Shown piece by piece: positions 6,640 through 41,150 of a DNA stretch of 64,000 bases; position 1 is the first letter of the stretch; every line of letters begins with the position of its first letter. Source of the DNA: a bacterium. GTDB lineage: Bacteria > Zixibacteria > MSB-5A5 > WJJR01. The position numbers and the translations under genes were made by a program. The notes under the pieces are model-generated. The model was not told the DNA's origin and searched no databases. It saw nothing but the letters and a program-made list of their open reading frames with translations. The DNA is taken from NCBI GenBank assembly GCA_035559435.1, contig DATMBC010000019.1, forward strand, positions 1 through 64,000, given 5' to 3'.

Positions 6640-7197
6640 ATGGACGCCGTCACGCTCACATTCTTCTGCCTGGCCTTCATGACCATCGTGTCGTCGTTGA
6701 TGGTGGTCAGCTCGAAGAACATCTTCCATTCGGCGATCTATCTGATTCTGGCGTTCTTCGGCGTGGCCGGTCTCTTTGTCCTCCTCGAGGCGCCCTTTCT
6801 CGCCGCCGCGCAGGTGCTCATCTATGTGGGCGCCATCGCCATCCTGCTCATCTTCGGCGTGATGCTGACCGCGCGCATCGCCGATGCCCGGCTGCGGCAC
6901 GTCAACGAACAGGTCCCGACCGGGCTGGCGATCTCGCTGGGGCTTTTGGTCATCATGCTCTACTCGTTGTGGAACACGCCGATTCCGGTGAGTTCCGGCG
7001 CCCCGACCGGCGTCGCCGGCCACACACTCGGCCGGTTGTTTCTGACCACCTTCGTCCTGCCCTTTGAAATCGTCTCGGTGCTGTTGCTGGCGGCGTTGAT
7101 CGCCGCGCTGGTCATCGCCAAGAAGGATGGCCCGTATCAACCGTCGGACGAGTCGGCGCCGGCGGAGAAACCGGATCTGGAGAAGGTGGCGCGTTAG
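6640..7197 (+). CDS. nuoJ: NADH-quinone oxidoreductase subunit J
   Basis: NuoJ is a membrane-arm subunit with about five helices. The 185-residue protein shows the conserved early segment NIFHSAIYLILAFFGVAGLFVLLEAPFLAAAQVLIYVGAIAILLIFGVML in the correct order, including the strongly conserved Tyr-Val-Gly of the third helix that takes part in conformational coupling. The C-terminal tail after the last helix is hydrophilic (KKDGPYQPSDESAPAEKPD), as is common. The gene is tightly spaced between nuoH (3 nt) and nuoK (15 nt). Confidence 0.93.
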   Translation: MDAVTLTFFCLAFMTIVSSLMVVSSKNIFHSAIYLILAFFGVAGLFVLLEAPFLAAAQVLIYVGAIAILLIFGVMLTARIADARLRHVNEQVPTGLAISLGLLVIMLYSLWNTPIPVSSGAPTGVAGHTLGRLFLTTFVLPFEIVSVLLLAALIAALVIAKKDGPYQPSDESAPAEKPDLEKVAR

Positions 7198-7212
7198 GCG
7201 CGGACGGACCTC

Positions 7213-7527
7213 ATGGCACCCATCGGCCTCCATCATTTTCTCGCGTTGTCAGCGGTGGTCTTCTGCATCGGCGTCTACGGGATGCTCACCCGCCGCAACG
7301 CCATCGGCGTTTTGATGGCGGTCGAGTTGATGTTCAACGCCGTCAACATCGCGCTGGTCGCCTTCGGGCGCTATGTCACGCCGGAGACGGTCACCGGGCA
7401 GGTGGTCGCGGCCTTCACCATCGCCGTCGCCGCCGCCGAAACCACCGTCGCGCTGGCCATCGTCCTGCTCATCTACCAGCACCACCGCGGGATCGATATC
7501 GACAAGATCAATTTCATGAAGTGGTGA
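7213..7527 (+). CDS. nuoK: NADH-quinone oxidoreductase subunit K
   Basis: NuoK is a three-helix membrane subunit homologous to MrpC of Mrp antiporters. The 104-residue product contains the two membrane glutamates expected in the proton path, in VELMFNAVNIALV and AAAETTVALAIVLLIYQ. Length is typical (about 100 residues). It lies 15 nt after nuoJ and 20 nt before nuoL. Confidence 0.95.
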   Translation: MAPIGLHHFLALSAVVFCIGVYGMLTRRNAIGVLMAVELMFNAVNIALVAFGRYVTPETVTGQVVAAFTIAVAAAETTVALAIVLLIYQHHRGIDIDKINFMKW

Positions 7528-7547
7528 TCGCACCCAAGTAGCGTCGC

Positions 7548-9464
7548 ATGTTAGAGAACGCCTGGCTCATACCGGTCTTCCCGCTCGTTGCGATGGCGGC
7601 CATCATGCTGGTCACCCACCGCAGCCGCATGCTGTCGGCCGGGCTGTCGATCGGCGCGATGGCGATCGCCTTTGTCTGGTCGTGGGCCATCGCCGTCACG
7701 GTCTGGAACAACCCGCAAACCCTGCGTTTCGCCTTCGACTGGCTCAACCTGGGCCCGTCGATGCACATCGTGCTCGGCATTCAGATCGACGGCCTCACCG
7801 CGATGATGTTGATCGTGGTCTCGACCGTCGCGCTGATGGTCAACATCTATTCGCTGGGGTACATGCACGGCGACCCGAAGTTCGCCCGCTTCTACGGTTT
7901 CCTGTCGCTGTTCGGCATGGCGATGCTCACCCTGGTATTGGCCGACAACTTCTTCCTGATGTTTGTCTCCTGGGAACTGGTCGGACTGGCGTCGTACCTG
8001 CTGATCGGTTTCTGGTTTGAGAAGAAGTCGGCCTCCGACGCCGGCAAGAAGGCGTTCATCACCACCCGGTTGGGCGACCTCGGTTTTATCATCGGCCTGC
8101 TGATGCTTTATAACGCGGTCGGCTCGTTCACCTTCGCCGACGTCAACAACGCGGTGCAGGCGGGCGCCCTGGCCGGCGGCTACCTGACCGTCGCCGCCCT
8201 CTGTCTGTTTGCCGGCGCGGTGGGCAAATCGGCGCAGGTGCCATTGCATGTCTGGCTCCCCGACGCGATGGAAGGCCCGACACCGGTGTCGGCGTTGATC
8301 CATGCCGCCACCATGGTGGTGGCCGGCGTGTACCTCGTGGCGCGTTCGCTCACGCTCTTTGCCGCCGCGCCCGACGCCGCGATGACCGTCGCCTGGATCG
8401 GCATGATCACCTCGCTTATGGCGGCGACCATCGGCCTGGTGCAAAACGACATCAAGCGCGTCCTGGCCTACTCGACCGTCTCGCAACTGGGCTATATGAT
8501 CATGGCCCTGGGGCTGGGCGGTTTCACCGCCTCGATGTTCCATCTGATGACCCACGCCTTCTTCAAGGCGCTGCTGTTCCTCGGCGCCGGATCGGTCATC
8601 CACGCGGTGCACACCAACGACATTCAGGAAATGGGCGGGCTGCACGCCAAGATGAAGAAGACTTCCTGGACCTTCCTCATTGCGGCGTTGGCGATCGCCG
8701 GTGTGCCGCCGCTGTCGGGATTCTGGTCGAAGGACGAAATCGTGGCGGCCACCGCCGGGCATCCGGTCTTCACCGTGCTCACGCTCCTGGTCGCTTTCAT
8801 GACCGCGTTCTACATGTTCCGTCTCTATTTCCTGACCTTCACCGGCCGTCCGCGCGACCAGCACAAGTTCGATCACGCTCATGAGTCGCCGGGCGTGATG
8901 ACCGGCCCGCTCATCTTCCTGGCGGTGCTGTCGGTGATTTCGGGGTTTGTCGGGATGCCGTGGCTGCATTACAATTTCGCCGCCGTGGTCTTTCGCGGCG
9001 AGCCGCACCACGCCGAGTTCCATCTGTCGACCGCGGTGATCGCCACGCTCGTCGGGCTCTCCGGCATCGGGCTGGCGTACCTGATGTACTTCAAGCGCTC
9101 AATCGATCCGGACAGGATCGCCGCCTCGTTCCAGGGCCTCTATCGCACGCTGTTCAACAAGTATTACTTCGACGAGGCCTACGACGCGCTCTTCATCCGG
9201 CCCTACTATAAGATCTGCAACGGCTGGTTTGTGTTCGATCAGAAGATTATCGATGGGTTGGTCAACGGCTTGGGCGATCTCGGCTTGCTCTGGTCGAGGA
9301 TCAACACCTGGTTTGACACCTATATCGTCGACGGCGCGGTCAACGGCGCCGGCATTGTCACGCGCGGCTTTGGCCTGACCATTCGCCATCTGCAGACCGG
9401 GCGGGTGCAGAACTACGCGTTCATCGTCTTTGCGGCGCTGGTGATTATCTGGCTGCTCCAATAG
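7548..9464 (+). CDS. nuoL: NADH-quinone oxidoreductase subunit L
   Basis: NuoL is the distal antiporter-like subunit with the long lateral helix. The 638-residue protein has the antiporter core, including FVSWELVGLASYLLIGFW, the lysine-bearing HVWLPDAMEGPTPVSALIHAATMV and LAYSTVSQLGYM, and a long C-terminal extension with an amphipathic stretch. Length is normal for NuoL. The segment YYFDEAYDALFIRP near residue 545 matches the conserved region that precedes the lateral helix. It continues the nuo operon. Confidence 0.95.
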   Translation: MLENAWLIPVFPLVAMAAIMLVTHRSRMLSAGLSIGAMAIAFVWSWAIAVTVWNNPQTLRFAFDWLNLGPSMHIVLGIQIDGLTAMMLIVVSTVALMVNIYSLGYMHGDPKFARFYGFLSLFGMAMLTLVLADNFFLMFVSWELVGLASYLLIGFWFEKKSASDAGKKAFITTRLGDLGFIIGLLMLYNAVGSFTFADVNNAVQAGALAGGYLTVAALCLFAGAVGKSAQVPLHVWLPDAMEGPTPVSALIHAATMVVAGVYLVARSLTLFAAAPDAAMTVAWIGMITSLMAATIGLVQNDIKRVLAYSTVSQLGYMIMALGLGGFTASMFHLMTHAFFKALLFLGAGSVIHAVHTNDIQEMGGLHAKMKKTSWTFLIAALAIAGVPPLSGFWSKDEIVAATAGHPVFTVLTLLVAFMTAFYMFRLYFLTFTGRPRDQHKFDHAHESPGVMTGPLIFLAVLSVISGFVGMPWLHYNFAAVVFRGEPHHAEFHLSTAVIATLVGLSGIGLAYLMYFKRSIDPDRIAASFQGLYRTLFNKYYFDEAYDALFIRPYYKICNGWFVFDQKIIDGLVNGLGDLGLLWSRINTWFDTYIVDGAVNGAGIVTRGFGLTIRHLQTGRVQNYAFIVFAALVIIWLLQ

Positions 9465-31635: not shown

Positions 31636-32751
31636 ATGAAGTTCACGACCAAGCGCGATGACCTAAGCTCCCGTCTGCAGGCGGTGCTGGGAGTGATCTC
31701 CAGCCGTACCACCCTACCTATTCTCGGGAATGTCCTGCTGACGGCCACCAACGATGGAATCACTGTGGCGGCGACCGATCTTGACCTGTCGATGACCGCG
31801 ACGGTGGCGGCCAAGGTGAGCAAAACCGGATCAACGACCGTGCCGGCGCGCACCTTTGCCGAAGTAGTACGCGAATTGCCCGATGAGGATGTCCATGTCA
31901 CGGTGGCCAACCACCGCATGGAAGTGAAGTCGGGGCAGGGTGTTTACAAGATGAGCGGGATGTCCCCCGAGGAATTCCCGCGTCTGCCCGGAATCCCCGA
32001 AGGCGGCGCGGTCACCATTCCCATCGACCAGCTGCGCAGCATGGTCCACCGCACGATCTATGCGGTCTCCACCGATGAGACCCGTCCGGCGCTCAACGGC
32101 ATCCTCTGGCAATCCAACGGCGAGAAGATGCACATGGTGGCCACCGATGGGCATCGTCTGGCGCGCGTGTCGGTGGCCGACAATCGCCTAGCCGGCCTGA
32201 AGAACGAGCTGATCGTGCCGCCCAAGGCGCTGTCGCTGGTGCTGAAGATGGCGACCGATGACACCAGCGAAGTCGCGGTGATGTTCGGCGAGAAGAACAT
32301 CGTCTTCAAGGTCGGCGATGTGATCATCACCAGCCGTCTGATCGAGGGGCCGTATCCGAACTACAACCAGGTCATCCCCAAGGGGAACGACAAGTTTCTC
32401 ACCGTCGACGGGGCGACCTTGGCCGCGGCGGTGCGTCGCGTGGCGGTGCTGTCCAACTCACTCACCAAGCAGGTGAAGTTCGCGTTGTCGGGCAACACGA
32501 TCGAGCTGTCGGCGACCAACCAGGATGTCGGCGGCGAGGCCCGTGAGACCATCCCCTGCGAGTACAAGGGTGAGGATCTGGAGATCGGCTACAACGCCAA
32601 CTACGTGCTCGACATGCTGAAGAACTTCGACGCCGGCAACGTGGTCTTCGAGCTGGCCACGTCGATCTCGGCCGGCCTGGTCCGCGCCGCCGACGATCCG
32701 GACAAGGAAAAGTACCTCTGTCTGGTGATGCCGCTGCGCCTGGCGGATTGA
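31636..32751 (+). CDS. dnaN: DNA polymerase III sliding clamp (beta subunit)
   Basis: DnaN forms the ring-shaped clamp that tethers the replicative polymerase. The 371-residue protein shows the three repeated clamp folds and family segments such as SRTTLPILGNVLL, DETRPALNGILW, ATDGHRLARV and the C-terminal YLCLVMPLRL, where the last residues close the hydrophobic partner-binding pocket. The ATG at 31636 (MKFTTKRDDL) is preferred over an upstream GTG at 31621 because it matches the family start. The next gene in the usual order, recF, is missing. Confidence 0.97.
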   Translation: MKFTTKRDDLSSRLQAVLGVISSRTTLPILGNVLLTATNDGITVAATDLDLSMTATVAAKVSKTGSTTVPARTFAEVVRELPDEDVHVTVANHRMEVKSGQGVYKMSGMSPEEFPRLPGIPEGGAVTIPIDQLRSMVHRTIYAVSTDETRPALNGILWQSNGEKMHMVATDGHRLARVSVADNRLAGLKNELIVPPKALSLVLKMATDDTSEVAVMFGEKNIVFKVGDVIITSRLIEGPYPNYNQVIPKGNDKFLTVDGATLAAAVRRVAVLSNSLTKQVKFALSGNTIELSATNQDVGGEARETIPCEYKGEDLEIGYNANYVLDMLKNFDAGNVVFELATSISAGLVRAADDPDKEKYLCLVMPLRLAD

Positions 32752-32779
32752 AGACTCCACGAACGCGCAGACAACCGTC

Positions 32780-32813
32780 ATTCCAAGCCCGCGGCTTTAT
32801 GCGGGCTTGGAAT
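32780..32813 (+). terminator. Hairpin after dnaN, member of the ATTCC-type dispersed palindrome
   Basis: A perfect 13-bp stem (ATTCCAAGCCCGC, 32780-32792, with 32801-32813) ends in CTTTG. The same arm sequence recurs at 38967-39000 and, with changed bases, at 46680-46714. It may end dnaN transcription before the CRISPR array, but the T-run is weak. Confidence 0.6.
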
Positions 32814-32826
32814 CTTTGTAGATGCT

Positions 32827-33852
32827 GTGGACCTTCACCGACAATCGTCGCTTGAGTACATTTTCCCGCTTGGCGATGACCATTAACTCCTGGCTGGGGA
32901 TTGACGACAATCGTCGCTTGAGTACATTGATCCCGGCGAAACTGATGTCGATGTTGTTGCTGGGGATTGACGACAATCGTCGCTTGAGTACATTACGGAA
33001 GAGCGCAAACTGGATGTGGACAGTGCTGGGGATTGACGACAATCGTCGCTTGAGTACATTCCGGTTGTGGCCGCGACGCAGATGGCGGTTGCTGGGGATT
33101 GACGACAATCGTCGCTTGAGTACATTCCACCGCGGATTCGCAGGACGCGATTGTGGGCTGGGGATTGACGACAATCGTCGCTTGAGTACATTAGAACACG
33201 ACAAACTTCCTGCGCGTCGGCGAGCTGGGGATTGACGACAATCGTCGCTTGAGTACATTCGGAGCCGGAGCCGGAAACGAAGTAACTTGCTGGGGATTGA
33301 CGACAATCGTCGCTTGAGTACATTGAGGTAGGGGCAGTAGAAGGCGCGGCGGTCGCTGGGGATTGACGACAATCGTCGCTTGAGTACATTTGAACGGCGC
33401 CACGGACGGCTATACCGCCAGCTGGGGATTGACGACAATCGTCGCTTGAGTACATTGCTTGAGGTGAGCGCCCCCGGTCAGGACCCGCTGGGGATTGACG
33501 ACAATCGTCGCTTGAGTACATTCCAGATTGACGAAGGCGACGCGGGGGACCCGCTGGGGATTGACGACAATCGTCGCTTGAGTACATTCGCGGTATCGTT
33601 GTCTGTCGCCAGGATGAAGCTGGGGATTGACGACAATCGTCGCTTGAGTACATTTCAAGATCGGGACATTCGTCCTGATCATCGGCTGGGGATTGACGAC
33701 AATCGTCGCTTGAGTACATTCCACAGCGTCAGACGTACGTAGTCAACCTGGCTGGGGATTGACGACAATCGTCGCTTGAGTACATTGAAAACGATAGCGA
33801 TGATACTCTATCTCATGCTGGGGATTGACGACAATCGTCGCTTGAGTACATT
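32827..33852 (+). CRISPR. Type II-C CRISPR array, 16 repeats and 15 spacers
   Basis: Fifteen identical 36-bp repeats (start GCTGGGGATTGACGAC, end GTCGCTTGAGTACATT) begin at 32893 and end at 33852. They are preceded by one degenerate repeat (32827-32862), whose last 23-24 bases match and whose first dozen differ. Spacers are 30 nt, except one of 31 (33193-33223) and one of 29 (33260-33288). The tracrRNA anti-repeat pairs with the plus-strand repeat, so the array is transcribed rightward, toward cas2. The repeat contains a 5-bp hairpin (GACGA-CAA-TCGTC) and a promoter. No spacer was seen to match other parts of the window by eye. Predicted ORFs over the array are artefacts of the repeats. Confidence 0.99.
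32901..32928 (+). promoter_or_regulatory. Repeat-embedded promoter (example in the first intact repeat)
   Basis: Each intact repeat carries TTGACG at positions 9-14 and TACATT at 31-36, separated by 16 bp. This is a sigma70-like promoter pointing into the following spacer, and a start about 7 nt downstream would give crRNAs with roughly 24 nt of spacer. The degenerate first repeat keeps the -10 but lost the -35. Comparable repeat-borne promoters are known from Neisseria type II-C arrays. Confidence 0.65.
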
Positions 33853-33889
33853 CTAACCCCGCGTAAGCACCTGCCTTACGCGGGGTTAG
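33853..33889. terminator. Perfect 15-bp palindrome abutting the last CRISPR repeat
   Basis: CTAACCCCGCGTAAG (33853-33867) pairs perfectly with 33875-33889 across a 7-nt loop. It begins at the base after the last repeat and lies between the convergent array and cas2. It has no T-run on either strand, so it might be a bidirectional transcript end, an RNA-protecting hairpin or an integration-anchor (leader) element. Confidence 0.6.
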
Positions 33890-33903
33890 CCCCATTATTC
33901 GGG

Positions 33904-34248
33904 CTAAAAAAGCAGCAGTTGGCGAGGTGGCTCCTCTGTCCTGGCCCGTTTTTTCCCGCAATAGACTTCCATCTTGCCGAACTGATGATCCGTCACCATC
34001 AGAAAGCGCACCTCGCCGTCGCCGGGCAATTGGTCGCGGACCCGGCTGCAGATCAGGTCGGCCTTCTGCTCGCTCCCGCAGAACCGGGCATAGACGGAGA
34101 ATTGCAGCATCATGAAACCCTGCCGCAGCAGGACCTTGCGGAACCGGGTGTATGCCCGCCTCGCCGCGGCGTCATCAACAGGAAGATCGAACAGGGCACA
34201 AAGCCACATGGCGCGATAGGGGGATGGCGCGGAGCGCTTCGTTTTCAC
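33904..34248 (-). CDS. cas2: CRISPR-associated endonuclease Cas2
   Basis: Cas2 forms the dimeric core of the Cas1-Cas2 spacer integrase. The 114-residue protein has the ferredoxin-like start YRAMWLCALFDLPVDD with the conserved Asp after the first strand, then RAYTRFRKVLLRQGFMMLQFSVYARFCGS and the later strand VRFLMVTDHQFGKMEVYCG, all typical of type II Cas2. GTG at 34248 is the start. It is the last gene of the leftward cas9-cas1-cas2 operon, 23 nt after cas1. Its final codons contain a T-run. Confidence 0.95.
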   Translation of the reverse strand: MKTKRSAPSPYRAMWLCALFDLPVDDAAARRAYTRFRKVLLRQGFMMLQFSVYARFCGSEQKADLICSRVRDQLPGDGEVRFLMVTDHQFGKMEVYCGKKRARTEEPPRQLLLF

Positions 34249-34271
34249 TTCACAGACCCCTGATGGCCCGC

Positions 34272-35162
34272 CTACCAGGAGGGCACGAGGAGCCGGCGGG
34301 TTTGGCCTGACAACACGCCGGCCAATGAGGCCGACATCCGCGTCGTCGCATCAAACAGCGACCTTTCCTCGCCGCCGATCACCACGCGCCCATTCAACAG
34401 GGCGCCAATCAGTGTTTCCTTTGTGCTGCGGTCCAAAGGCGGCTCCGGGCCGCACCTGTCGAGGATCCCGCGCACCTGCCGGTCGACAAGCGGGCGGAAC
34501 GGCTCCATGAGATCGTCGGCCAGACAATACGGGTTGTAGCGATTGTGATGGTGAATGCCCAGCGAAGGATGCAGTCCGGCCCCGCAAAGTCCCCGGGCGA
34601 CAATGGCCCGCAAGATGGCGTACCCGTAATTCAGGAGCCGATTGATCGGGTCGTCGGCGCCGGGCACCCGGGCGAAGGCAGCCCCGAAGACCAGCGGCCA
34701 ATAACGCCGCGCCGCCTGCGCTTCGAGATTGTCCGGATCGCCGGAGCGGACGCCCCGCGCAAGCGCCACCAACCCCGCGTTACCGGCGCCAAGATCCATG
34801 AGTAAGCGCGCCTGGGACAGAATCTTTGAGCGGACAACCTGCTTCCAGGCGAACTTCCGCGCGGGCAGGGTGGACTCCGCCTGGGCCGCCAATCGCTCGG
34901 CCTGCACATAGTGCCCGACCAGCGGCACCAGCATCCCGACGGGCAGACGCTTCTCATTGCAGACGATGAGGGGCGCGCCCGCCGCGCACAGCCCGGAGAG
35001 TGTGGCGTGTGTGTAGTGAACGGCCGGATGCGAGACGACAACGGCGGTCACTTCCTCCAGCGGAACGGAAACCTCGCCGTCGTCGCTCTTGAGGCGCAAC
35101 TGGTCCAGCCGCGCGGACAGCGCCACCTGCTTGTCGGCGATGTCGATAATCTTCTCGTCCAT
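34272..35162 (-). CDS. cas1: CRISPR-associated integrase Cas1 (type II)
   Basis: Cas1 is the catalytic subunit for spacer integration. The 296-residue protein has an N-terminal beta domain (about 1-75) and the helical catalytic domain. The metal-binding residues are visible as the Glu in DPDNLEAQAARRYW, the His in LCGAGLHPSLGIHH and the acidic cluster in LADDLMEPFRPLVD. Length is normal for type II Cas1 (about 290-300). A perfect 9-bp hairpin touches its start codon, and no Shine-Dalgarno sequence is visible. It follows cas9 by 45 nt. No csn2 or cas4 is present, in agreement with subtype II-C. Confidence 0.97.
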   Translation of the reverse strand: MDEKIIDIADKQVALSARLDQLRLKSDDGEVSVPLEEVTAVVVSHPAVHYTHATLSGLCAAGAPLIVCNEKRLPVGMLVPLVGHYVQAERLAAQAESTLPARKFAWKQVVRSKILSQARLLMDLGAGNAGLVALARGVRSGDPDNLEAQAARRYWPLVFGAAFARVPGADDPINRLLNYGYAILRAIVARGLCGAGLHPSLGIHHHNRYNPYCLADDLMEPFRPLVDRQVRGILDRCGPEPPLDRSTKETLIGALLNGRVVIGGEERSLFDATTRMSASLAGVLSGQTRRLLVPSW

Positions 35163-35184
35163 TGCCGATAGGGATTATCGGCAA
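35162..35184 (-). promoter_or_regulatory. Hairpin at the cas1 start codon
   Basis: On the cas mRNA strand TTGCCGATA and TATCGGCAA form a perfect 9-bp stem with a 5-nt loop, and the last base of the stem is the A of the cas1 ATG (35162). It could mask cas1 initiation unless translation from cas9 opens it. Confidence 0.5.
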
Positions 35185-35207
35185 CTAAGACGCTCATTCA
35201 AGCCCGG

Positions 35208-38200
35208 TTAGTCGCTTACGTGTTTGAGTTCCCCCAAGGGGGTAACGGCGACTTTGCGGCAGTGGCGTTTGCGCAGAGTATCGGCATTGGCGGTCAAGCC
35301 GGCGAAGGTATCCTCCTCTTTCACTCTCTTTTTCGGCCGGGCGTCGGCGGCTCGGAGAAAGAACAGACGCTCTGAAATCGTACGGATGCGATAGAGCGCG
35401 CGCTTTCCGTCTGGTTCGTCCAATTCAATCATTTCGCCGCCCGAGAGCGTGAAAAGAAACTCGGTCCGCGGGCCATAGTCGGTTCGGATGATCGGCTCGC
35501 CCGCGCGCTTGCGCCGGTGCGCCTCGAGCAATGAGACGATTTCCGACTTCCACGTCTTGTCCTCAATCGATGCATAGATCGCCATGTGGTGATTCCGCTC
35601 GGTCTCGGCCCAGCGCAGTCGATGGCCCTCGCCAATCGGATAGACCGTCAGTTTATCTTCGATGCGCACACGACGGATGGGACGCCCAGCCGGGTCAAGC
35701 GGCAGATTCTCATAGTCTTTGAATGCATCCTTGGGGCTCTCTTTCCCCAATTCCGCAAGTTTGGCCACAACCGCCGCCCGGATGGCCGGATCGACAATGG
35801 CGGAGACTTTCTTGGCGTCGAGGGAAGCCAGCGGCTTGCGCACATGCACCGCGCCGTTGCCCTGCGGGCTGTAAAAGGTCGCGGCATGCAGAGGACCCCG
35901 CACCCGTCGTGATGAGCGATGCGACACGACGACCGCGCTCACGGTCTTGGCAACGTCGGCGCGGAGGGTATCCCAGGGAGGCGTCAGCGGGGCGAATCGG
36001 CGGCCCACTTCTAGGCCGCGGCGCGCCGCGTCGGCGAGGGCCTTGATGCGGCCGTCATCGGTCAACGCCACGACGATGGCGTCGACGGTGTGGTGCCGGT
36101 GGTCGTCGCGCGACTTGCTCGTGCCGTCTCCGAGGATGGAGTCCAATCCCCACTCATGGCGGAACATCGCCGTGACGCCGCCGCTGGAGGCGAACACCCG
36201 ACGTGTCCCGAAGGCGTCGATGCCGTCATCATTGAGCCCGCCGTAAAGCAACCCGAGGTACTTCTTGGCCCAGCGCGAGGCCCAACCGGTGTCGTTCAAT
36301 TGCCGCGCCGTGAAGGCGTCGAGGAGTCGGGCGGTTTCCTTCTCGTCCATTCGGAAGCGACGGGCTTTGGCGTATGAGAGTTTCGCCGCGCGCCGGGAAA
36401 TCTCCTCCCACCGGGCGGTCCCGGAATAGGCCTCAAATGGCGTGCGGTTGTGCTTCCGTTCGCGGTTTTCGCGCACGTCGCAGAGCGTTTTGTTCATGAA
36501 CGAATCATCCAGCGAGCGCGGCAGGGGGATGATGTGCTCGATGTCAAACTGCGGCTGGACGCCGAAGAGATCGGCGGCGCTGATCATCTTGCCGGTGTAG
36601 GGACACTGCTGCCCGCATTCCTCCCAGAGCAGGTACTTTTCTATGTTGCGACCGTTGGGCACGTATCCTTGCTCTTCCAGCCACTTGGCTGCCTTCTCGC
36701 GCGCCTTGCGATTCTTATTCTGCCGCTTGTGGGTCTCTTCCCGCTGTTTGGGTGTCTGGCGCACATCGCGAGCCAGTTCAATTCGGATGCGGTCGGGTTT
36801 GCCATACTTGGCTACGATCGCATTGACAACTCGCCGCAACTCAGTGAGGGAGCGTTGCACGACAGGATTGCGCAACGCCGGAAGCCCCGACTCGGCTAGG
36901 GGCGGCAGACTGTCCCAGGGATCGCTCGATCCGCCCTCGGTGTATCCCGCCTTCTGCTTGGCATCCGGCAATGTGCAACCCGCCTCGAGGTGAGGCAGCA
37001 GTTTGTCCAGGGCAGGGCGCGAGTATGCAGAATATCCCTCATCCAGACGGAGAGCGCCGAATTGCCGGGCGGCCTCCTCGCTTAGCCGCCATTTGACGAC
37101 TCCCCGCCGGGCCAGCGCCTCCTCTTTGGTGATGGAAATCCAGTCTTCGAGAACCTGCTGCCGCTCGGAATCGGGCATGGCGCCCCAGCGTTCGGCGCCG
37201 AAGATGTCTCTGAGTTTGGCGTTTGTCTTGTTGCCGGGGATTTTCTCCTGCTTGGCGCGTTCGAGGTTGATTTCGATGTTCTTGCCCAGCTTCAAGGTCG
37301 TTCGAATCTTCCCGTAGCTCATGGCCTGCTGGGTCTCAAGCTTGTCGGCCAGCAGACGACGCTCGGAATCTGTGAGCGCGCGCAGTTCGCCGGTCTCGTG
37401 GTCGAGCAGGCGGATATTGTTGATCGTCTGCCAGATTCGGAATCGCTGCGCCGAGAACAGGCACATCGGGGCCCGGCGGCGATTCGGCTCCAGCTCGCAG
37501 TAACCGACCAGGTGCTTCACGCTGGCCAGCGGCCGCTGATAAAAGATGGAGCGGTATATGCGCTTACGGAGCGCGTCGGAGAGAAGGTCGGCATGAAATC
37601 GCTTCTGGTTCTCCCAGATGGCGTCAAACTCCTGAGTTGTCATGTCACGGCCGAGGTACTGTCCGCGCACACGCCTGGCCGCCATCGCCGAACGTGACAG
37701 CAACGCTCCCAGTGTCGGCGCGCCTTCTGTCTGCATCTCCTCCCGTAGTTTTGCGAGGTGCTCGGCCACTTTCCCTTTGGCCTCATCCTCGCTTTGCTTC
37801 GATTTGCGATTGCTCACGAAGCCGCGTCGTTGCGCGAGATGATAGAGCGCGCGTCCGAGCGCGTACGGTTCGAGGCGCCCAGACAGAGCACGGGCTCGGA
37901 GCTCGTAAGGGGACGGAAGTTCCTTGTCCAGGTTCTGCAAAATCTGATGACGTTCGAGCGAATCGCGATAATTCCCCTTCGGGAGAAGTCCCGCCGAAGC
38001 CAGCAAATCGCCCAGTCGACTAAGGCGCTGCGTCAGGCGCTGAAGTCGTCGCCGTACAGAACGCGCCTCCCGTCTGGCGGCGTTGCGTGAGATGCCTTTG
38101 CCGTCGGCTTCGAGGTCTTCCAACCCTGCGTCGAAAACACGGACCCCAGCCGCGACAATTCGATCGGACTGCACCAGTGCCCAGCCCAGAGACTCCGGGC

Positions 38201-38243
38201 CCAAATCGATTCCAAGCACCGTTTCCACTGTCATGCTGTTCAT
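35208..38243 (-). CDS. cas9: Compact type II-C Cas9 endonuclease
   Basis: The 1011-residue effector cleaves DNA guided by crRNA and tracrRNA. RuvC-I has Asp13 (GIDLGPESLGWA); an arginine-rich bridge helix follows (about 54-75). RuvC-II has Glu489 (RIRIELARD). The HNH domain (about 540-605) has Asp567 and His570 (FDIEHIIP) and Asn593. RuvC-III has His718 and Asp721 (RHHTVDAIVVALT). All nuclease residues are present, so the enzyme should be active. The C-terminal part (about 760-1011) would bind PAM and repeat-anti-repeat duplex and is divergent. Size and absence of csn2/cas4 support II-C. The ATG at 38243 has AGGA 4 nt and GGAGG 12 nt upstream. Confidence 0.98.
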   Translation of the reverse strand: MNSMTVETVLGIDLGPESLGWALVQSDRIVAAGVRVFDAGLEDLEADGKGISRNAARREARSVRRRLQRLTQRLSRLGDLLASAGLLPKGNYRDSLERHQILQNLDKELPSPYELRARALSGRLEPYALGRALYHLAQRRGFVSNRKSKQSEDEAKGKVAEHLAKLREEMQTEGAPTLGALLSRSAMAARRVRGQYLGRDMTTQEFDAIWENQKRFHADLLSDALRKRIYRSIFYQRPLASVKHLVGYCELEPNRRRAPMCLFSAQRFRIWQTINNIRLLDHETGELRALTDSERRLLADKLETQQAMSYGKIRTTLKLGKNIEINLERAKQEKIPGNKTNAKLRDIFGAERWGAMPDSERQQVLEDWISITKEEALARRGVVKWRLSEEAARQFGALRLDEGYSAYSRPALDKLLPHLEAGCTLPDAKQKAGYTEGGSSDPWDSLPPLAESGLPALRNPVVQRSLTELRRVVNAIVAKYGKPDRIRIELARDVRQTPKQREETHKRQNKNRKAREKAAKWLEEQGYVPNGRNIEKYLLWEECGQQCPYTGKMISAADLFGVQPQFDIEHIIPLPRSLDDSFMNKTLCDVRENRERKHNRTPFEAYSGTARWEEISRRAAKLSYAKARRFRMDEKETARLLDAFTARQLNDTGWASRWAKKYLGLLYGGLNDDGIDAFGTRRVFASSGGVTAMFRHEWGLDSILGDGTSKSRDDHRHHTVDAIVVALTDDGRIKALADAARRGLEVGRRFAPLTPPWDTLRADVAKTVSAVVVSHRSSRRVRGPLHAATFYSPQGNGAVHVRKPLASLDAKKVSAIVDPAIRAAVVAKLAELGKESPKDAFKDYENLPLDPAGRPIRRVRIEDKLTVYPIGEGHRLRWAETERNHHMAIYASIEDKTWKSEIVSLLEAHRRKRAGEPIIRTDYGPRTEFLFTLSGGEMIELDEPDGKRALYRIRTISERLFFLRAADARPKKRVKEEDTFAGLTANADTLRKRHCRKVAVTPLGELKHVSD

Positions 38244-38251
38244 AATTCCTA

Positions 38252-38280
38252 TTGACCTCCGGCAGGAATCATTCTACACT
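38252..38280 (+). promoter_or_regulatory. tracrRNA promoter
   Basis: TTGACC (38252-38257) and TACACT (38275-38280) are spaced by 17 bp, predicting a start near 38287, just before the anti-repeat. The -35 element overlaps the complement of the cas9 ribosome-binding site, and the -10 overlaps that of the cas9 promoter. Confidence 0.7.
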
Positions 38281-38299
38281 ATGTCCTGTATGTACTCAA
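38271..38299 (-). promoter_or_regulatory. cas9 operon promoter, -35 inside the tracrRNA anti-repeat
   Basis: On the minus strand TTGAGT (38299-38294) and TAGAAT (38276-38271) are spaced by 17 bp, predicting a start near 38264 and a leader of about 20 nt. The -35 hexamer lies in the anti-repeat; the two opposing -10 boxes share two base pairs. Confidence 0.65.
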
Positions 38300-38382
38300 G
38301 CGGCGGTTGTCTCGCTTCCCAGTAAGACAACAGTCGAGGGTCTGAAAGCCCGGCTCCCGTGCATCACGGGAGCCATTTTTTT
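38287..38382 (+). ncRNA. tracrRNA
   Basis: The anti-repeat at 38290-38322 matches the reverse complement of the repeat: 13 consecutive bases (ATGTACTCAAGCG), then CG, TTGTC and, after a bulge region, CCCAG. The two A-to-G changes in the middle still allow G-U pairs with the repeat. A tail of about 30 nt with a small stem region follows, then a 10-bp terminator stem (38352-38361 with 38365-38374) and seven T residues (38376-38382). A promoter with correct spacing precedes it. The RNA is about 95 nt and transcribed away from cas9. Confidence 0.88.
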
Positions 38383-38572
38383 CGCGCACGAATAGCGCGG
38401 TGATCCCACAGGAAGCGCGTCTGCAGGCGTCGGCATAACCAATAGAAGATCAACGGGTTGCGGAGGTGTTCCCTATGAAAAACCCATTGCCCATCCTGCA
38501 ATCTCCTTGTAAATTGATGACTTAGCGCGATCCGCCGCTTGGGTTTGCGGGGGTGCGTCTTGGGGGCAGTTC

Positions 38573-38869
38573 TTGTCGAAGCCGTCCGCGATCGGCGAGT
38601 TAATTCGTGGCCGTTTGGCCACGCTGGGCCTGGCCCGGAAAATCAAGGAAGCGGGAGTCGCTGTCGCCTGGCCCGAACTGGTCGGACCGGACATCGCCGC
38701 GCATACGCAGGTCATCAAGCTGGAGCGCGGGAAGTTGTTTGTCGCTGTGGATGAGCCGGCCTGGCGGCAGGAGTTGATCTACCAGAAGCAGGCGATCTGC
38801 AAGTTGATCAACACGGCGCTGGGTGATGGGGAGACGCTGGTGAGCGACATTATGTTCACCGGGCCGTGA
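38573..38869 (+). CDS. DUF721 / DciA-like protein
   Basis: The 98-residue protein matches the DUF721 family: an N-terminal helical stretch (IGELIRGRLATLGLARKIKEAG), the W-x-x-(L/I)VG motif in VAWPELVGPDIAAHT, and the KH-like strand part KLFVAVDEPAWRQELIYQKQAICKLIN. DciA-type members recruit the replicative helicase DnaB. A TTG start at 38573 with GGGGGCAG upstream is used because no ATG fits. Its place just upstream of gyrB is the conserved one for this family (dnaN-recF-DUF721-gyrB), which supports the assignment. Confidence 0.8.
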   Translation: MSKPSAIGELIRGRLATLGLARKIKEAGVAVAWPELVGPDIAAHTQVIKLERGKLFVAVDEPAWRQELIYQKQAICKLINTALGDGETLVSDIMFTGP

Positions 38870-38883
38870 GTGGCGGGGGGAAA

Positions 38884-38935
38884 CAAAGATTGCTTCGTCG
38901 TCGTCCGCCTTCGGCGGACTCCTCCTCGCAATGAC
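38884..38935. repeat. Dispersed palindromic repeat with GTCCGCC-TTC-GGCGGAC core
   Basis: ATTGC and GCAAT ends flank a perfect 7-bp hairpin, with the arm sequence AACAAAG before and GACG after. The same outer words occur around the ATTCC-type palindromes at 38967 and 46680, so this is probably the same kind of mobile or structural intergenic element. Confidence 0.55.
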
Positions 38936-38966
38936 GGGGATGTTGGTGGGATGAGGGGAAACAAAG

Positions 38967-39093
38967 ATTCCAAGCCCGCAAAAAGCCGCGGGCTTGGAAT
39001 GATGATAGTAGGGTTGCTGCGGGCTTGGAGTGACGATGGTAGAGTTGCCGCGGGCTTGGAATGACGATGGTAGAGTTGCCGCGGGCTTGAAAT
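38967..39093. repeat. ATTCC-type palindrome followed by three 31-bp tandem repeats
   Basis: A 13-bp inverted repeat (38967-38979 with 38988-39000) is followed by three 31-bp copies (39001-39031, 39032-39062 and 39063-39093), each ending in the right arm GCGGGCTTG-(G/A)A-(A/G)T. The tandem units look like repeated duplication of the palindrome's right half. No gene is present. Confidence 0.75.
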
Positions 39094-39120
39094 GACGGAT
39101 GTCGCAGGGCTTTTCAGACA

Positions 39121-39154
39121 ATGACGCAGGGCGGGTTGCCCGCCGGCGCGTCAT
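39121..39154. repeat. Nested palindrome upstream of gyrB
   Basis: ATGACGC (39121-39127) pairs with GCGTCAT (39148-39154), enclosing GGCGGG/CCCGCC. It lies 52 bp before the gyrB start and could act on gyrB expression or be another dispersed repeat. Confidence 0.5.
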
Positions 39155-39164
39155 CGACGAGTGA

Positions 39165-41150
<1,986 letters not shown>

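Follow-up and report, generated by a model that had tools for sequence, protein, structure and literature searches.

In the window, by which we mean the whole 64,000-nucleotide stretch analysed here, a predicted tracrRNA promoter and a predicted cas9 promoter were found on opposite strands of the same 48 bp, and the pair probably acts as a compact divergent (bidirectional) sigma-70-type promoter for both components of a type II-C effector. This assignment is part of a wider explanation that we consider, as a whole, to be probable: a promoter derived from the CRISPR repeat has been kept for cas9, the tracrRNA starts at its anti-repeat, and the cas9 promoter has been relocated in the window. According to this explanation, the tracrRNA gene would begin with the anti-repeat, a copy of the CRISPR repeat in inverted orientation, so that the opposite strand would inherit the repeat promoter facing cas9. 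In the repeats of this clade, such a promoter would place each crRNA start slightly within the corresponding spacer; read from the other strand of the anti-repeat, it would point to cas9, for whose transcription it would have been retained. The tracrRNA would start at the edge of the anti-repeat from a different promoter, the -35 box of which touches the cas9 ribosome-binding site, and with both arrangements in place the two start regions must overlap. Finally, in the lineage of the window, the ancestral cas9 promoter would have decayed, and the sequence TTGAGT-17-TAGAAT would have taken over 18 bp nearer to cas9. The elements, their geometry, their conservation and the shift itself were all established from sequence, as follows.

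The window contains a complete type II-C CRISPR-Cas locus. The genes cas9 (35208–38243, 1011 aa; TIGR01865, E 1.4e-203, with HNH_4 and RuvC_III), cas1 (34272–35162; TIGR03639, type II cas1, E 2.5e-75) and cas2 (33904–34248; TIGR01573, E 2.3e-17) are encoded in this order on the minus strand, and the CRISPR array (32827–33852, plus strand) runs in the opposite way. As in other type II-C loci, cas9, cas1 and cas2 are the only cas genes, without csn2 or cas4, the Cas9 protein is of around 1000 aa, and the array is oriented opposite to the cas genes. The array, with a 36-nt repeat and a 66-nt period, consists of 15 intact repeats from position 32893, preceded by a degenerate first one, and its spacers are distinct from one another. 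Every one of the 15 intact repeats contains TTGACG-16-TACATT, corresponding to the promoter in each repeat of the type II-C arrays of Neisseria and Campylobacter, as read from the letters only. In the first repeat (32827–32864, upstream in the crRNA sense), the first ~13 bases are degenerate (GCTGTGGACTTTCACT vs GCTGGGGATTGAC), and therefore its -35 box is lost, the remainder being intact; this agrees with the decay reported for the "extra repeat" of II-C arrays (PMC12080349).

The tracrRNA gene (38287–38381, plus strand) was recognised by its complementarity to the repeat and by its fold, far more stable than that of shuffled sequences (z = -4.9), and comprises the anti-repeat, 3' hairpins and a strong intrinsic terminator (38352–38374, plus strand) followed by a T run, with cas9 adjacent. 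The anti-repeat (38289–38323, plus strand; upper stem 38290–38311, lower stem to ~38323) is 91% complementary to the array repeats over 22 nt, and the repeat:anti-repeat duplex reaches -52.9 kcal/mol (-42 to -61 kcal/mol in the relatives described below). A search of the window against Rfam gave no match. An extra hairpin, GGCTCC..GGAGCC, between the nexus and the terminator was present in most relatives and absent from the tracrRNA of the window (38323–38374).

The predicted tracrRNA promoter, TTGACC-17-TACACT, extends along positions 38252–38280 of the plus strand (-35 at 38252–38257, -10 at 38275–38280), and the predicted cas9 promoter, TTGAGT-17-TAGAAT, along positions 38299–38271 of the minus strand (-35 at 38299–38294, -10 at 38276–38271), each of them matching 9/12 consensus positions. 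The first-pass annotation had described both promoters within these 48 bp, and its boxes were recovered at exactly the same positions. It was also right in that the two -10 boxes share two base pairs (38275–38276, a palindromic TA), that the cas9 -35 lies inside the anti-repeat, within its segment 38290–38311, and that the tracrRNA -35 reaches into the complement of the cas9 ribosome-binding site, in this case by 2 bp of the Shine-Dalgarno sequence GGAGG (38260–38256, minus strand, read from the sequence). This class of overlap between the Shine-Dalgarno sequence and the tracrRNA -35, TGTCAAGG, was also found in most relatives. Allowing 7 bp from the -10 box to the start, the tracrRNA would start at ~38287 (+) and cas9 at ~38264 (-), 23 bp from each other. 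The predicted tracrRNA start lies 2 nt from the end of the anti-repeat, and its promoter is the best tracrRNA-sense one there.

Promoters were scored with a matrix built on the generally known base frequencies of E. coli promoters, which may not be those of the host's sigma factor. With this matrix, TTGAGT-17-TAGAAT reached 9.8 bits vs 3.7 for the next cas9-sense site in the 230 bp scored. Two promoter sites were observed in 3 kb vs 0.6 ± 0.8 expected by chance. In the 64-kb window, used for background counts, 23 sites of this quality were found on the plus strand and 10 on the minus strand. Among all these, the tracrRNA/cas9 pair was the sole divergent pair with starts at most 30 bp apart, and when the local 207 bp were simulated with a first-order Markov model, such a pair appeared in 0.2% of the copies. 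The window thus shows what is expected from a bidirectional promoter: -10 and -35 boxes on both strands, a shared -10, and predicted starts in the range of ~10–23 bp apart.

Protein searches over 133 genomes of the phylum yielded 12 more loci with a readable cas9 start, belonging to seven families of the same class and encoding Cas9 proteins 43–53% identical to that of the window. In addition, a further locus, L033 (genome G088, 7062–8712), contained only cas9 fragments, covering query residues 336–1011 in pieces, and corresponds to a decaying copy. Alignment of the cas9 upstream regions of the 12 relatives revealed two conserved blocks with unalignable sequence between them, separated by 29–32 bp in 12/12 cases (30 bp in L026, read by eye). 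The first block is the anti-repeat, the complement of which reads TTGAC(A/G/T)-17-TACATT towards cas9 in 12/12, with one TATATT and one TACACT among the -10 variants, so the putative cas9 promoter of the relatives is wholly contained in the anti-repeat complement (12/12). The second block, TGTCAA with GG after it in most cases, lies at the cas9 ribosome-binding site and corresponds, on the other strand, to the tracrRNA -35 TTGACA, located at the same place in all 12. Scored with the E. coli matrix, the anti-repeat promoter was the top cas9-sense one within 230 bp in 12/12 relatives, and several relatives carry near-consensus promoters (10–11/12). On the other strand, in 13/13 loci the start predicted from the top tracrRNA-sense promoter lies at a distance of 0–2 nt from the edge of the anti-repeat, and the mean score of the tracrRNA -10 was positive at spacing 17 only. 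A strict version of the anti-repeat promoter motif was found once per genome, upstream of cas9, in 8/8 matching genomes. In this class, the tracrRNA anti-repeat thus looks like the cas9 promoter, and we infer that it drives cas9 in the relatives. The earlier proposal that the evolution of the anti-repeat is tied to the cas9 promoter turned out to be too modest, as the whole cas9 promoter appears to be anti-repeat sequence in these 12 loci.

The same motif was detected in the repeats themselves: those of the window and of nine relatives' genomes carry TTGAC(A/G)-16/17-TACATT. The spacer is of 17 bp in 12/12 anti-repeat promoters and of 16 bp in most repeats, and an A occupies the unpaired sixth position of the -35 box in 9/12 of the relatives' anti-repeat promoters. 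Promoters for crRNAs within II-C repeats have been demonstrated experimentally in Campylobacter (PMC3656092), and repeats of Neisseria II-C systems also carry them, as summarised in PMC12080349 and PMC7038990. As in these two genera, every intact repeat here holds a promoter whose -10 is formed by the final bases of that repeat; in contrast to them, the inverted counterpart within the tracrRNA gene keeps the promoter too, facing cas9.

Outside the clade the situation is different. Of eight outgroups, only one (Pigmentibacter) has kept the repeat's outer (-10) hexamer in its anti-repeat, vs 9/9 relatives with known repeats, a contrast with a Fisher p of ~4e-4, calculated by hand, that ignores relatedness and counts one clade as many points. 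In most of the outgroup plasmid loci (Pigmentibacter, Azospirillum, Bosea, Limnohabitans, Sphingobium, Tistrella, and Pasteurella), the tracrRNA starts at the anti-repeat, but the repeat promoter towards cas9 has decayed. The top cas9-ward site was located within the anti-repeat in L009, from a proteobacterial MAG. An anti-repeat promoter as a general rule for type II-C was rejected, as it is decayed in most outgroups (Azospirillum, Pasteurella, Limnohabitans, and others). In locus L066 the repeat was weak, with two copies, and no credible anti-repeat was seen; no array was obtained for L069, L070, L095, L101, or L102. In the Bosea plasmid locus (L067, 5912–5941), the end of the anti-repeat lies ~11 nt upstream of the annotated start of cas9, so that an mRNA initiated from a repeat-derived TGCTAGAAC -10 would have almost no leader.

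In the window, the counterpart of the relatives' cas9 promoter is a remnant, AAGCGA-17-TACATA (38289–38317, minus strand, in the anti-repeat complement), which matches 5/12 positions and is presumed dead; it aligns with TTGAC(A/G/T)-17-TACATT of the relatives and ranks 30th here vs first in 12/12 of them. The replacement, TTGAGT-17-TAGAAT, lies 18 bp downstream of this remnant, nearer to cas9, with its -35 made of anti-repeat bases and its -10 sharing the TA with the tracrRNA -10. At the replacement site the relatives showed no general signal (mean -2.7 at spacing 17), with a weak promoter in L025 and L028. In the Cas9 tree the window groups with G006 (support 93/98), a genome with the cas9 promoter in the anti-repeat, and therefore the shift is derived. 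The conservation of both promoters in close relatives, which had been proposed as a check, was thus confirmed for the tracrRNA half, and for the cas9 half only if the promoter is allowed to have moved from a site 18 bp upstream; the exact boxes TTGAGT/TAGAAT are not conserved and represent a derived replacement in the lineage of the window.

Such a loss could also mean that the system of the window is decaying, with its cas9 promoter lost and cas9 silent or nearly so, as could be suspected from the 5/12 score of the ancestral promoter and from the Cas9 branch, which is the longest in the clade, outgroups aside (0.92). We consider this quite unlikely, given that Cas9, Cas1, and Cas2 are full-length, that the 15 intact repeats are accompanied by distinct spacers, that the tracrRNA and its terminator are intact, and that the replacement promoter matches 9/12 positions.

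The remnant is also informative about what maintains the hexamers in the relatives. The anti-repeat of the window pairs as well as theirs although TTGAC and the final T of TACATT are missing; with -52.9 kcal/mol for its duplex, the -35 hexamer is dispensable for pairing, an argument for the relatives keeping it for another reason. According to a competing interpretation, the anti-repeat promoter would be a passive by-product, the shadow of pairing, with cas9 transcribed from elsewhere and TTGAGT/TAGAAT being a chance match in the window. The anti-repeat must indeed pair with the repeat, and the remaining upper stem is equally conserved; however, no relative has another cas9-sense site within 230 bp that matches the score, pairing in the window persists without the hexamers, the outer hexamer has usually been lost in outgroups, and where the ancestral promoter was lost, a replacement adjoins it. 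Taken together, these data make the by-product improbable. A comparison of wobbles and substitutions between promoter and non-promoter positions of the anti-repeat was tried and did not discriminate, since the whole upper stem is conserved, also off the promoter, and substitutions among relatives consequently do not separate selection on the promoter from selection on pairing. The hexamers of the relatives may be under selection as a promoter, although pairing could account for much of the conservation; apart from the remnant in the window and the outgroup contrast, the uniform 17-bp spacer of the anti-repeat promoters and the A at their unpaired sixth -35 position speak for such selection.

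Regarding the consequences of the overlap, we infer from their sequences that both promoters are active, and, if so, it is near certain that two polymerases would exclude each other at any given instant. The first-pass annotation had proposed that two polymerases could hardly bind at once, which is established for bidirectional promoters, where polymerases cannot bind in both orientations at the same time (PMC12825309). From this it had gone on to suggest that production of tracrRNA and Cas9 is mutually exclusive and self-balancing, and this second step found no support. In five of five E. coli bidirectional promoters tested, the opposite RNA hardly rose when one -35 was weakened, and the two sides competed only after one of them had been made strong (PMC12825309), so regulation by exclusion depends on strength; moreover, exclusion alone gives no feedback from the levels of Cas9 or tracrRNA. 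The effect of the overlap would then be, at most, a strength-dependent cap or ratio rather than feedback control. That the overlap is a device for such mutually exclusive, self-balancing production seems unlikely to us even though steric exclusion is established for this kind of overlap (PMC12825309), the geometry has been kept in 12 relatives, and in several of them the near-consensus promoters make competition likelier. Against it stand the lack of competition in the E. coli pairs at basal strength, the absence of feedback from the products, the shift of the cas9 boxes by 18 bp in the window lineage, and the fact that a tracrRNA start at an inverted repeat copy already accounts for the overlap.

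A different control, the autorepression of the cas9 promoter by Cas9-RNA complexes, is known in type II-A systems (PMC11417352, PMC8616872) and could be imagined here, either through a form similar to tracr-L of S. pyogenes or via a crRNA. Nevertheless, the predicted tracrRNA start falls at the anti-repeat, without a guide-like 5' extension, and none of the array spacers matched at least 18 positions of the promoter region without gaps, so we regard this as highly improbable. Judging from the predicted starts, the window lacks what tracr-L would demand, namely an extended tracrRNA whose 5' guide matches the cas promoter next to a PAM. As in the tracr-L/Pcas case of type II-A, the tracrRNA gene and the cas9 promoter interact at a single locus, but there the extended tracrRNA guides Cas9 to Pcas (PMC11417352), whereas here the link consists of overlapping DNA without a guide extension.

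Our preferred explanation, that of a repeat-derived promoter kept for cas9 and relocated in the window, has one of its closest parallels in the bacterial bidirectional promoters described by Warman, Grainger and colleagues, in which divergent starts lie a few bases apart and the -10 boxes face each other or are shared (PMC12825309). In E. coli, 18 bp is the commonest spacing between starts, with 10 and 23 bp also common according to this 2026 study (PMC12825309), and the predicted 23 bp of the window coincides with one of them. In contrast to those promoters, one of the products is here a small structural RNA and the starts are predicted; in addition, the predicted starts of the relatives are only ~5–7 bp apart, outside the three commonest spacings, and one of the two promoters is a derivative of the CRISPR repeat. 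The gene order, the array opposite to the cas genes and the position of the tracrRNA upstream of the cas genes resemble those of the II-C locus of Clostridium cellulolyticum (PMC7038990). In a literature search, weak evidence given its thin coverage of subscription journals, neither a bidirectional promoter shared by tracrRNA and cas9 nor an anti-repeat used to transcribe cas9 was found described.

Extended to the whole class, the sequence of events would be a co-option in which the repeat promoter passed to the anti-repeat and became the cas9 promoter, so that a single piece of DNA would supply the pairing surface of the RNA from one strand and the nuclease promoter from the other, leaving the initiation of guide scaffold and nuclease sterically coupled and the anti-repeat doubly constrained, with one lineage escaping by relocation; this broader reading is tentative, and we hold it with slightly more doubt than belief. 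If the anti-repeat promoter drives cas9, the repeat promoter already known from II-C arrays would account for how little sequence suffices to express crRNA, tracrRNA and cas9, and tracrRNA evolution would be subject to an added constraint. For tracrRNA prediction, it would imply that starts abut the anti-repeat and that cas9 promoters may sit within it. When native II-C loci are used in other hosts, deletion or recoding of the tracrRNA region would be expected to take the cas9 promoter too. The 12 ancestral loci, together with the one relocated promoter, constitute a natural set for testing competition between opposed polymerases.

With respect to its surroundings, the CRISPR-Cas locus (32751–39195) is flanked by dnaN on one side and by the dciA-gyrB pair on the other. 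Only ~0.6–0.7 kb separate dnaN from gyrB in G004 and in the same-genus genomes G001 and G002, which suggests an insertion of the locus into that junction, or its loss from it; in G006, an array was found ~5.5 kb from dnaN. The whole locus is bracketed by a 49-nt inverted pair (92%; 32771–32819 and 38961–39009), palindromic and with the core GCGGGCTTGGAATGAC. More copies of this element appear at 38985–39097, spaced 31 bp, and its 21 matches in the genome at two mismatches or fewer indicate that it is probably a REP-like element.
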